From the NCBI GenBank assembly GCA_030576275.1, contig JALIBN010000028.1:68952-132951 (forward strand): a stretch of 64,000 bases of DNA, given 5' to 3'. Origin of the DNA: Pseudomonadota bacterium (GTDB lineage: Bacteria; Pseudomonadota; Gammaproteobacteria; Nitrosococcales; Methylophagaceae). The translations under genes and the position numbers were made by a program. The notes under the pieces were generated by a model. That model saw only the letters and a program-made list of their open reading frames with translations. It did not search any database and was not told the DNA's origin. Shown here in pieces: positions 6,592 through 10,384 of this stretch (position 1 is the first letter of the stretch; the number at the start of each line of letters is the position of its first letter).

Positions 6592-7845
6592 TTACATATG
6601 GGTTATAACTGAGGCCGCGTAATCACTACTACTTAGGGCTTCTACACCAACCATCTCGGCCAAATCACACGTGACTTGAGAGTTCATAATTGCCCCTGCA
6701 ACACCCGCGACAACTAAATCTGCGGCTTCAAGCCAGCCAAGGTGGCGTAGTAACATTTCGGCTGACAAGATCAATGACGATGGGTTTGCCATGTTTTTAC
6801 CCGCTAAAGCAGGTGCTGTACCATGAGTTGCTTCAAAAATAGCGATTGAATCGGATAGATTTGCACCAGGTGCAATACCAATACCACCAACCTGAGCAGC
6901 TAAGGCATCCGATATATAATCACCATTTAGATTTAATGTCGCCACCACATCATAAGCAGATGGGTGTAACAAAATTTCCTGTAAAAAGGCATCGGCAATA
7001 CAATCTTTGATAACAATTTCTTTACCCGTATTTGGGTTTTTAAATGATTTCCATTCACCACCATTTAATGGCATTGCAGCAAACTCTTTTGCCGCAAGCT
7101 CATAACCCCAAAGTTTGAAGCCACCTTCTGTGAACTTCATGATATTACCTTTGTGTACTATGGTGACAGAATCACGGTTATTATCAACTGCATACTGAAT
7201 CGCTTTACGTACCAAGCGCTCTGTCCCTTGGCGTGAAACCGGTTTAATACCAATACCTGAGGTTTCAGGGAAACGGATTTTAGTAACGCCCATTTCTTCT
7301 TGTAAAAATTTGATAATTTTTTTAGCATCATCGCTTTCTGCGGCCCATTCTATACCGGCATAAATATCTTCTGAATTTTCACGGAAGATAACCATATCAA
7401 TTTTTTCAGGTGCTTTAACTGGGCTAGGTGTTCCCGGATAATAACGTACAGGTCGCTGGCAGAGGTATAGATCAAGTGTTTGACGCATAGTCACATTTAA
7501 TGAGCGCATACCGCCACCGACTGGCGTCATTAAGGGACCTTTTATAGAAACGGCATAATCCTTTAACGCCTGCATAGTCTCTTCAGGCAAATACTGATCG
7601 ACACCATAGACTTTGGTGGCTTTTTCACCGGCATAGACTTCCATCCATGCGATTTTACGTTCGCCAATGTAGGCTTTTTCAACAGCAGCATCAATAACTG
7701 AAATCATTGCTGGCGTTATATCAACACCAATGCCATCACCCTCTATAAATGGAATGATTGGTTGGTTTGGCACATTTAAAGAAAAATCTGCGTTAACACG
7801 AATAACATTGCCATTCTCAGGTAAGTTGATATGTTCGAAAGCCAT
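6592..7845 (-). CDS. icd: Isocitrate dehydrogenase, cofactor preference uncertain
   Basis: A 417-residue homodimeric-type isocitrate dehydrogenase converting isocitrate to 2-oxoglutarate in the TCA cycle. It aligns along its length with E. coli Icd ([16 protein letters not shown], then [17 protein letters not shown], then [14 protein letters not shown]). The phosphorylatable substrate serine context is replaced by [13 protein letters not shown]. The NADP-determining residues of E. coli Icd (Lys344, Tyr345, Val351, Tyr391, Arg395) read Ala, Leu, Ala, Cys and Glu here, so an NADP label is not safe and NAD use is likely. Start ATG follows AGGAGCC. Confidence 0.93.
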
Positions 7846-8001
7846 TCAAAAAGGCTCCTGATAATTAAAACGCTTATTTTAACACTAAGTACGTCTCCGA
7901 CCCAAAAAATGACGATTCAGTTAAAACCAAAATACACACCCAACTAAACTATCTAACCATGTAATAACACTTAAAACATAAATCATTATGTAACATTTCC
8001 C

Positions 8002-8019
8002 ATTATCATTAGTCATAAT
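8002..8019 (+). promoter_or_regulatory. Imperfect palindrome in the promoter region of the DUF692 gene
   Basis: ATTAT and ATAAT arms flank ATTAGT 28 bases before the DUF692 start codon. The 3' half also reads CATAAT, a plausible -10 box, with only a weak -35 candidate upstream. The symmetry is partial, resembling but not matching a Fur box. It could be an operator. The evidence is position and symmetry only. Confidence 0.25.
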
Positions 8020-8046
8020 GACAGAAAGCTAATTAGGAGATAATTA

Positions 8047-8895
8047 ATGTATACAGCCTCACGCCCAATATCTGGTGCAGGTTTAGGGCTCCGCAGAAGC
8101 TTTATGAACGAGCTAGACGCACTTGACCATAACCCTACTGACTTCCTTGAAGTTGCGCCTGAAAACTGGATGGAAATGGGCGGGATCTTAGGTAAAAAAT
8201 TTGCACATTTTGCCGAACGTTACCCTATGATCTGTCATGGCCTCTCACTATCAATAGGTAGCCCAGCGCCATTAGATGAAGACTTTTTAATACGCTTGAA
8301 AAGGTTCTTCGATAAACACAATATACGGTCTTATAGCGAACATTTAAGCTATTGTAGTGATGATGGTCATCTATATGATTTGATGCCAATTCCCTTCACA
8401 CAAGAAGCAGTTGATCATGTTGCCAATCGTATTCAACGAGTCCAAGAAATCTTGGAACGGCCCTTAATCATAGAGAATGTCTCATATTATGCAGCGCCAG
8501 GGCAGGAAATGTCTGAAATTGATTTTTTAAATGGCGTAATTGAACAGGCTAATTGTGACTTACTATTAGATGTTAATAATATTTACGTCAATAGTATTAA
8601 CCACGGTTATGATGCAGAAAATTATATTAAATCCATAGCGAGTAATCGTATTGCCTACCTACATATCGCAGGGCACTATGATGAAGCAGATGATCTAAAA
8701 GTAGATACTCACGGTGCTGATATCATCGATCCCGTCTGGGATTTATTAGAACTGACCTATCAACATCACGGTGTACTGCCAACACTGTTAGAGCGTGACT
8801 TTAACATTCCATCACTTGATACATTAATAACTGAAGTAGATAAAATTCGTCATTATCAGTCGATTCAGGAACGAGCCCATGTCGCAACAGCCTAA
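8047..8895 (+). CDS. DUF692 family multinuclear iron-dependent oxygenase (MbnB/TglH/BufB-like)
   Basis: A 282-residue TIM-barrel protein of the DUF692 (MNIO, UPF0276) family, whose studied members modify cysteine or other residues of small peptides (methanobactin MbnB, TglH, bufferin and HvfB enzymes). The metal-binding motifs all appear in order: GAGLGLR, FLEVAPENW, HGLSLSIGS, SEHLSY, ENVSYY, LLLDVNNIYVN, HIAGH, DTHGADIIDP and LLERD. Length is normal. A good AGGAG ribosome site precedes the ATG. It overlaps its DUF2063 partner by 17 bases, so the two are coupled. No precursor peptide gene is visible next to it, which leaves its substrate unknown. Confidence 0.88.
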   Translation: MYTASRPISGAGLGLRRSFMNELDALDHNPTDFLEVAPENWMEMGGILGKKFAHFAERYPMICHGLSLSIGSPAPLDEDFLIRLKRFFDKHNIRSYSEHLSYCSDDGHLYDLMPIPFTQEAVDHVANRIQRVQEILERPLIIENVSYYAAPGQEMSEIDFLNGVIEQANCDLLLDVNNIYVNSINHGYDAENYIKSIASNRIAYLHIAGHYDEADDLKVDTHGADIIDPVWDLLELTYQHHGVLPTLLERDFNIPSLDTLITEVDKIRHYQSIQERAHVATA

Positions 8896-9637
8896 AACGT
8901 CTAGTTTTATCGATACCCAATATAAGTTTGCAGCCTTCCTGCGTGATCCTGATAACCAACCAGTGCCTGACAACATAGAACCCAGGCGCATGGCTATTTA
9001 TCGTGAACTTTTTTACAACAATATTGAAGGCTTTATCGCCAATGGCTTTCCGGTATTAAGGCAAATCACCACAGATGACGCTTGGCACAGTATGATTCGT
9101 GATTTCATGATAAAACACCACTGTAAAACGCCCTTGTTTCATAAGATTGGCCGTGAATTTATGGCTTACCTTGAAAATGATCGTGACAATACCGATGATC
9201 CTATTTTCATTCAAGAGCTAGCACATTATGAATGGGTAGAATTAGCATTGAGTGTTTTAGATAATGAGGTAAAATACTCAAAGATCAATCCAAACCAAGA
9301 CATCTTAGACATTAGTTTTAAAACATCGCCACTCGCATGGCCTTTAGTTTACAACTATCCTGTTCATCAGATTGATTCCGACTTTCAGCCCAATGAAGCA
9401 AGCACCATCCCCGTTCACTTACTTGTCTATCGTAACAAAGAGGATAGCATCACATTTTTGGAATTAAACCCTGTAAGCGCACGCCTTATCAATTTACTTA
9501 ATGAAGGACTAACAGGCCAAATGGCAGCAGAAACAGTTGCTAGTGAATTACAACATCCTAACCCACAAGTTGTAATTGATGGTGCCCGTGCCTTGATTGA
9601 TGACTGGTTACAACGTGAAATATTAATTACAAACTAG
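8879..9637 (+). CDS. DUF2063 family partner of the DUF692 oxygenase (BufC/HvfC-like)
   Basis: A 252-residue protein whose N-terminal half is the DUF2063 domain (annotated elsewhere as putative DNA-binding). Segments such as RRMAIYRELFYNNIEGFIANGFPVL and ELAHYEWVELAL are characteristic. In MNIO systems the equivalent protein (MbnC, BufC, HvfC) is the partner that presents the precursor peptide to the oxygenase. The C-terminal half, roughly residues 150-245, has the winged-helix-like profile expected for leader binding. It overlaps the DUF692 gene by 17 bases. No terminator is obvious on its strand within the 115 bases before the eda stop. Confidence 0.8.
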   Translation: MSQQPKTSSFIDTQYKFAAFLRDPDNQPVPDNIEPRRMAIYRELFYNNIEGFIANGFPVLRQITTDDAWHSMIRDFMIKHHCKTPLFHKIGREFMAYLENDRDNTDDPIFIQELAHYEWVELALSVLDNEVKYSKINPNQDILDISFKTSPLAWPLVYNYPVHQIDSDFQPNEASTIPVHLLVYRNKEDSITFLELNPVSARLINLLNEGLTGQMAAETVASELQHPNPQVVIDGARALIDDWLQREILITN

Positions 9638-9682
9638 ACGTTTATATAACAAAGAAACATATTTAAAAATAAGCTCCGCAAC

Positions 9683-9731
9683 AAAAAAAGGGCAGAGAGC
9701 CCCCGAGATATTGACTCGATGCTCCCAGCCC
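9683..9731 (-). terminator. Rho-independent terminator of edd-eda
   Basis: Three stacked helices: GGGC (9690-9693) with GCCC (9728-9731), GAGC with GCTC, and CGAG with CTCG closing a 7-base loop. On the minus strand the structure is followed directly by seven T. It lies about 20 bases past the eda stop codon. The plus-strand DUF2063 gene has no comparable T run here. Confidence 0.85.
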
Positions 9732-9751
9732 CTCTTTGGCGAAGAGATGAA

Positions 9752-10384
9752 CTAGCTAGTTGCTAATTGAACCGCTTCAGCTGATAAACGGGTAATTTCA
9801 TCCCAGTTTTCATCATCTACTAAATTTGCCGCACACATCCAAGAACCACCTACACACGCCACATTTGGCAAGCTATAGTATTCTTTAACATTCTTTTGGC
9901 TTACGCCGCCAGTTGGGCAAAATGTAATTTGTGGAATCGGTGCGCCAATTGATTTTAGCATTGGCACGCCACCCGCTGCTTCTGCAGGGAAAAACTTCAT
10001 TGCAGTAATACCTTTTTCTAGCAAACGCATTGCATCACTAGGATTAGCAATACCTGGTAATAAAGGCACGCCAGTTGCTAGAGCGGCATCAATTAATTTA
10101 TCTGTTGTGCCTGGGCTCACAATAAATTGCGCGCCAGCTTCAATTGCGGCGTTCAATGTTTCGATATTAATGATAGTACCTGCGCCGACTATAGCATCTG
10201 GTACTTCTGCTTTAATACGTCTAATAGATTCAAGAGCTGCTGGCGTACGTAAGGTAATTTCTAATACTTTCAATCCACCTTTAACCAAAGCTTTGGCTAA
10301 TGGCACTGCATGTTCAACGTTATTAATAACCATCACCGGTACAATTGGTGAGATAGTCATAATTTCTTTAATGGTTAGGCTCAT
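9752..10384 (-). CDS. eda: 2-dehydro-3-deoxy-phosphogluconate (KDPG) aldolase
   Basis: A 210-residue class I aldolase that splits KDPG into pyruvate and glyceraldehyde 3-phosphate, the last step of the Entner-Doudoroff route. The Schiff-base lysine is K130 in MKFFPAEAAGG and the catalytic glutamate is E42 in LEITLRTPAAL. Length matches the family (about 213). It lies 30 bases after edd on the same strand and ends at a strong terminator, so edd-eda is a two-gene operon. In RuMP-cycle methylotrophs this pair provides cleavage of KDPG; whether that applies here is inference. Confidence 0.96.
   Translation of the reverse strand: MSLTIKEIMTISPIVPVMVINNVEHAVPLAKALVKGGLKVLEITLRTPAALESIRRIKAEVPDAIVGAGTIINIETLNAAIEAGAQFIVSPGTTDKLIDAALATGVPLLPGIANPSDAMRLLEKGITAMKFFPAEAAGGVPMLKSIGAPIPQITFCPTGGVSQKNVKEYYSLPNVACVGGSWMCAANLVDDENWDEITRLSAEAVQLATS

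Follow-up and report, generated by a model that had tools for sequence, protein, structure and literature searches.

An hvfB-hvfC pair in a Methylophagaceae genome as the probable maturation half of a split HvfA-type pathway

Pathways that pair an MNIO (DUF692) iron enzyme with a DUF2063 partner, a small precursor, and a DoxX-type membrane protein have been described under the control of ECF sigma factors in several bacteria. The descriptions cited throughout this article are taken from parts of the respective papers. In Haemophilus influenzae, the ECF sigma factor RpoE2 controls a DoxX/COG3220/DUF2063 cluster together with msrAB (PMC7907618). In Caulobacter, sigma F acts through the promoter GTAACC-N16-CGAA and drives genes for an MNIO, a DUF2063 protein, a precursor, and DoxX as well as the unlinked gene for YedY, an MsrP-type protein (PMC3511200). 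The Neisseria sigma E operon, NMB2140-2145, includes MsrA/B, and its promoter reads GTMAGBWTT ... CGTCTAAH (PMC2893595). The products of the Fontimonas, Haemophilus, and Neisseria systems are reported to contain 5-thiooxazoles (PMC13097082), and the product chromophore absorbs near 302-305 nm (PMC13419390, PMC13097082). Among EGKCG clusters, a few carry PF00174 and ferric-reductase genes, and precursors encoded away from MNIO genes have been reported (PMC12452194).

Here, we describe an hvfB-hvfC pair in the window, the whole stretch of 64,000 nucleotides that was analysed from a genome of the Methylophagaceae. We think it very probable that this pair forms the maturation half of a split pathway of the HvfA type (oxazolin/captophorin), in which both halves belong to one sigma regulon and an HvfA precursor encoded on another contig, C18, is matured in trans.

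The hvfB-hvfC pair and its flanks

The pair and the likely ribosome-binding site of its first gene lie as follows:

8047..8895, + strand: hvfB, MNIO (DUF692) iron enzyme of 282 aa; an open full-length frame assigned by NF003818, PF05114, PDB 3bww, and motifs
8879..9637, + strand: hvfC, MNIO partner of 252 aa with a DUF2063 domain and an NGO1945-type C-terminal domain; assigned by NF050145, PF09836, PF22106, and PDB 3dee
8035..8039, + strand: AGGAG, likely ribosome-binding site of hvfB, read from the sequence

Both frames are intact and have 17 bases in common (8879-8895), as a previous sequence-only reading of this DNA had stated. The hvfB product scores 440.6 bits against the NCBIfam model NF003818, "HvfB family" (cut-off 360), and the hvfC product 302.6 bits against NF050145, "HvfC family" (cut-off 142); the BufB model gives 276 bits on HvfB, under its cut-off of 310. 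Pfam PF05114 matches HvfB with 352.4 bits, and PF05114, PF09836, and PF22106 are all above their cut-offs for the pair. Relatives in the PDB are 3bww for HvfB (E 1.2e-75) and 3dee for HvfC (E 6.2e-9), both of which are described as parts of genuine peptide-maturation loci (PMC13097082, section 7). A search of the whole genome returned a single PF05114 match and a single PF09836 match, namely hvfB and hvfC. The genome thus holds no second DUF692 copy with a precursor beside it, an arrangement that the reading had set against its own view.

No precursor gene adjoins the pair, which bears out a further statement of that reading. On the + strand, the sole frame of at least 8 codons in the upstream flank (7846-8046) has 12 codons, and the downstream flank (9638-9751) contains no frame of at least 8 codons wholly inside it. 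A hidden small precursor ORF next to the pair is ruled out by these + strand flank frames of at most 12 codons, and as to the reading's other counter-case, conserved small ORFs right beside the pair in relatives, the flanks in the window hold no ORF of note. In the wider stretch 9600-9800, the + strand frames are 8 to 15 codons long, and the - strand of the stretch upstream of hvfB holds frames of 8 to 31 codons. In relatives, the flanks around the pair were compared for frames of at least 70 aa. The neighbours of the pair in the window are both on the - strand: 6592-7845, which by resemblance we take to be an isocitrate dehydrogenase gene, and 9752-10384, presumably a KDPG aldolase gene. An aldolase-like gene lies 3' of hvfC in relatives too; the upstream neighbour differs there.

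HvfB contains the motifs RR (16-17), DVNN (175-178), VDTH (219-222), and ERDF (249-252). In FonB, R15, R16, and F250 are contacts conserved in the logo of Lys-Cys enzymes, and D249 is the catalytic base (PMC13097082, section 14). Assigned by position and motif, FonB R15, R16, F250, and D249 correspond to HvfB R16, R17, F252, and D251. For conservation, we examined 31 hvfB loci, namely the window's own and 30 drawn from the 50 matching genomes besides it, together with 30 hvfX loci drawn from the 48 genomes over the cut-off. RR, ERDF, and DTHG are present in all 31 hvfB loci and DVNN in 29 of them. The site-3 residues of MNIOs are given as N, D, and H (PMC13419390), which would fall in the DVNN and DTH of HvfB. 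As judged from these motifs, HvfB has the residues reported for MNIOs that act on Lys-Cys (EGKCG) precursors.

A precursor locus on another contig

The sequence-only reading had allowed that the substrate may be encoded elsewhere and had proposed a genome-wide check for Cys proteins of the HvfA or DUF2282 type. Our search for substrates in the window's own genome covered named families and one pattern, E-G-K-C-G. The codon pattern for E-G-K-C-G gave one match in the whole genome, on contig C18, and the reversed control pattern gave none. A DUF2282-type precursor is ruled out, the genome having no DUF2282 match at E <= 1. The match on C18 (G000 denotes the window's genome) belongs to a gene with a membrane-protein gene close by:

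G000:C18:5826-6185: hvfA, HvfA-type precursor of 119 aa, found by pattern search and NF050137
G000:C18:5172-5753: hvfX, DoxX-type membrane partner (NF050144, 215.5 bits, cut-off 80)

The proposed check thus decided the matter for a known kind of pathway, with an HvfA-type precursor encoded beside HvfX. The protein has a signal-like start, as judged by eye, and 6/6 of its cysteines lie within E-[GA]-[KT]-C-G. It scores 31.0 bits against the HvfA-family domain model NF050137 (cut-off 19.5) and 24.5 bits against the NCBI equivalog model NF050188, below the cut-off of 95; we therefore file it as a member of the HvfA family and not as an HvfA equivalog. hvfX starts 72 bases after hvfA and is followed by a gene for MsrP (302 bits, cut-off 207), after which comes a membrane protein gene that we take to encode MsrQ. 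Genes for an ECF sigma factor and an anti-sigma factor are divergent from hvfA. The anti-sigma factor has a C-X25-H-X3-C-X2-C motif, and anti-sigma factors of this type correspond to the ZAS form cited in PMC7907618. Across 30 other hvfX loci, some of them on pieces that end at contig ends, MsrP is present in 30, HvfA in 29, the sigma factor in 29, an MsrQ-like protein in 28, and the anti-sigma factor in 25.

The genome also contains an apparently decayed second hvfA-like copy at L123:1414-1677 (G000:C1, about 56.9-57.2 kb). This copy has the same signal region and a start without ATG, one repeat Cys is replaced by Arg, and the frame is lost after one KCG repeat; it reaches 12-13 bits (cut-off 19.5). 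A near match to the promoter-like motif described below stands before it by eye, with no exact match. Elsewhere, G008:C2:103105-103671 and G016:C56:17449-18489 each match the HvfA-family model in two different frames, which suggests tandem precursor genes at both places.

The precursor and the enzyme are encoded far apart. On its 157.5-kb contig, hvfB has some 77 kb or more of sequence on each side, and on the 23.3-kb contig C18 hvfA is separated from the contig end by nearly 6 kb, which puts more than 80 kb between the two genes. We compared this layout in 57 genomes of Methylophaga and relatives (the family sample, with one best place taken per genome) and in 229 genomes sampled from the class (the class sample). 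Within the family, HvfB exceeds its model cut-off in 51 genomes, HvfA in 48, and HvfX in 48. Of the 47 genomes with hvfA and hvfX, 46 have the two at most 2 kb apart. For hvfA and hvfB, 38 of 46 genomes show a placement on different contigs, which gives no distance between them, and the other 8 have them on the same contig at least 48.9 kb apart. The HvfB cut-off is exceeded in 73 genomes outside the family; 61 of these also have HvfA, and 12 have no HvfA at E <= 0.001. For four of the 61, no position of HvfA was listed, and the distance count covers the other 57: hvfA and hvfB are within 5 kb of each other in 47, 8.1 and 8.4 kb apart in two, and on other contigs in eight. Since the two genes are apart in 46 of 46 family genomes and within 5 kb in 47 of 57 genomes outside, the split is a trait of the Methylophaga lineage.

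Despite this separation, the two halves occur together. In the class sample, HvfB is over cut-off in 76 genomes, HvfA in 67, and both in 64 (Fisher p 2.4e-40, kinship ignored); in three of the 67 with HvfA, no HvfB reaches its cut-off. When the family sample is restricted to genomes with a completeness of at least 90% and a contamination of at most 5%, HvfB and HvfA are both present in 35 of 36; the remaining one, G003, has neither. HvfB is found without HvfA in 5 of 51 family genomes, all 69-86% complete, and HvfA without HvfB in 2 of 48 (55 and 85% complete). A second MNIO of another type is present in 18 of the 57 family genomes (181-277 bits, below the HvfB cut-off) and absent from the window's genome.

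A promoter-like motif at both loci

The upstream region of hvfB contains one further feature:

7989..8014, + strand: promoter-like motif TGTAAC-N17-GTC, ending 32 bases before the hvfB ATG; the sole exact N17 match in the window on both strands

This motif was first seen at hvfA and then sought at hvfB. The stretch separating hvfA from the sigma gene contains TGTAAC-N17-GTC in all 30 loci examined, and 30 of 31 hvfB loci, the window's own included, have it at most 150 bases before the start; in the exception, L026, ATC replaces GTC. Because the loci are related, the 30 motif-bearing loci are not independent of one another. Upstream of hvfB, most spacer bases vary and the motif elements are constant. 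N17 was the sole spacer to match at hvfB promoters among N10 to N24, and the other strand never matched. At hvfA, other spacers also match among the 30 loci (N13 in 7, N14 in 2, N23 in 3). The -10 side reads GTCaTAa at hvfB promoters as against GTCTATG at hvfA. With spacers of 16 to 18, the window contains one further match, at 2821 on the - strand (N16). The motif matched 16 times in 32 other sequence pieces that we examined, with 15 of the matches falling in pieces from the Methylophaga family. On C18, the ECF sigma gene itself contains a second TGTAAC-N17-GTC (L076:6805, + strand), which precedes the anti-sigma gene.

The sigma factor encoded on C18 probably recognises this motif at the hvfB and hvfA promoters. 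If so, the same sigma and promoter type at both loci would allow the two halves to be made together despite the distance. We infer a sequence of events in which oxidative or metal stress would lead the ECF sigma factor to turn on the two loci by way of their common promoter type, with the C18 locus supplying HvfA and its membrane partner HvfX. HvfC would present the HvfA precursor to the iron enzyme HvfB, which may oxidise the Cys of the E-[GA]-[KT]-C-G repeats; 5-thiooxazoles are the most likely product. The modified HvfA would then be exported and bind copper in the periplasm. MsrP, whose gene follows hvfX, would repair oxidised methionine. With its most likely precursor on C18 and the same stress-type promoter at both sites, the system looks like a known kind of copper-binding peptide pathway with its genes split in two, and it predicts a copper/oxidant-stress regulon in methylotrophs of the Methylophaga type.

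Other substrates and comparison with known systems

The reading of the pair as an orphan is ruled out by the C18 precursor. The suggestion that such a pair may point to a new modification target found no support; the precursor is of the standard EGKCG kind, HvfB has the Lys-Cys residues, and the two loci have a promoter-like motif in common. A false lead, that of an orphan maturase with a new target, is thereby removed, and the case illustrates the origin of such leads: precursors encoded elsewhere in the genome escape a reading of the flanks.

HvfB and HvfC could still act on another substrate, the C18 HvfA being unmodified or redundant, an outcome that we regard as quite improbable. The hvfA and hvfB loci are separate in every one of the 46 family genomes with both, the own-genome search took in named families and one pattern rather than every small Cys protein, and PMC12452194, in the part cited, leaves it possible that unlinked precursors stay unmodified; however, the co-occurrence of HvfB and HvfA in the family and class samples, the motif common to their promoters, the Lys-Cys residues of HvfB, and the two families being neighbours in 47 of 57 outside genomes all speak for HvfA as the substrate.

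A second candidate substrate is encoded upstream of hvfB in most relatives. In the window's genome, the corresponding gene lies on the same contig:

G000:C28:28029-28775 (L075:6030-6782), outside the window and 49 kb from hvfB: gene for a secreted protein of about 250 aa with an invariant [LM]CGC, here called the CGC protein

The possibility that the pair modifies this protein, either in place of HvfA or as well, draws on its position, since the CGC gene sits where a precursor usually sits. Of 43 family genomes that have the two genes, 39 have them at most 2 kb apart, and in most relatives the CGC gene is directly upstream of hvfB. Twelve named records have the gene by hvfB (Methylophaga 8, Gammaproteobacteria 3, Proteobacteria 1), and in 12 of 12 aligned named loci the protein has a signal-like, secreted-type start and an invariant L-C-G-C. 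Cys followed by Gly is the dyad preferred by FonB, which once modified an NVCGG variant (PMC13097082, section 13), and signal-peptide Cys proteins encoded just before MNIO genes are counted as likely precursors (PMC12452194, section 15). However, the promoter-like motif of hvfB itself stands between the CGC gene and hvfB, and no TGTAAC-N17-GTC occurs in the 14 kb that surround the CGC gene in the window's genome. In G000, G016, and G010, where the CGC gene is apart from hvfB, a rhodanese gene remains its neighbour; in the window's genome the CGC gene comes after a rhodanese-like gene and, by sequence, a TauE/SafE exporter candidate. HvfA, HvfX, and HvfB are kept without the CGC gene in G015, G027, and G028 (94-99% complete), and G022 (99% complete), which also lacks it, keeps HvfA and HvfB, with HvfX in fragments.

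Homologues of the CGC protein occur outside the family in 9 genomes among 369 searched and on six sphingomonad plasmids, and the CGC motif was seen in the 7 loci where that frame was read (13 loci in all). None of 13 outside-family pieces (7-13 kb, some reaching contig ends) has HvfB or HvfC by the CGC gene. An MNIO is encoded elsewhere in 7 of the 9 genomes and in none of the other 2, as against 143 of 229 genomes in the class (by a related model), so there is no clear link between the CGC protein and MNIOs. The neighbours on the plasmids include genes for a rhodanese, an ArsR-type regulator, and a sulfite exporter (four of the six plasmid regions examined), which points the CGC protein to reactive sulfur. 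Its AlphaFold model is of middling quality, with a mean pLDDT of 70.8 and a pTM of 0.49. Foldseek gave no convincing fold (among the 50 matches listed, TM-scores of at most 0.41 and rmsd of at least 12.5); nothing exceeded a cut-off in Pfam (one member searched) or NCBIfam, and PDB sequences gave one match, at E 0.85. Modification of the CGC protein by the pair therefore seems to us a slim prospect, and we judge the protein to be a neighbour rather than a substrate of HvfB. It is tempting to speculate, against long odds, that the pair modifies, besides HvfA, the folded CGC protein at Cys-Gly-Cys, one maturase thereby serving repeat-peptide and folded-protein substrates; if true, this would tie copper-peptide chemistry to reactive-sulfur metabolism.

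Maturation of the C18 HvfA in trans, the reading that we prefer, can be set beside the known systems. The oxazolin system of H. influenzae, HvfA-HvfB-HvfC-DoxX, consists of the same MNIO, partner, precursor, and DoxX families (PMC13419390, PMC13097082, PMC7907618); there, the four genes form one cluster with MsrAB in the regulon, whereas here the precursor and DoxX genes are on another contig, beside MsrP. The Caulobacter sigma F regulon resembles the present one in its ECF sigma factor and in its set of MNIO, DUF2063, DoxX, and MsrP-type genes, but its precursors are of the DUF2282 type and lie inside the MNIO operons, and the -10 side of its promoter is CGAA in place of GTC (PMC3511200). The Neisseria sigma E system has, as here, an ECF sigma factor, a zinc-type anti-sigma factor, and a DoxX protein with its neighbours, and its promoter is close to the present motif in both elements and in spacing; the Neisseria genes, however, form one unsplit operon that includes the sigma gene (PMC2893595).

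We found no literature naming Methylophaga that deals with this HvfA/HvfB system, most subscription journals lying outside the scope of the search, and a text search of PMC12452194 for "methylophaga" returned nothing. The Buf_EGKCG/oxazolin clusters of that paper combine, as here, EGKCG precursors with MNIO, DUF2063, and DoxX proteins. The part of it cited here describes neither a family-wide split nor a shared promoter joining the halves. A sigma-type promoter motif common to both loci can rejoin the halves of a split peptide pathway from sequence alone, and the unlinked precursors and maturases known from surveys could be matched to each other in this way. The kind of pathway and the existence of unlinked precursors are already known; what is unusual here is the layout.
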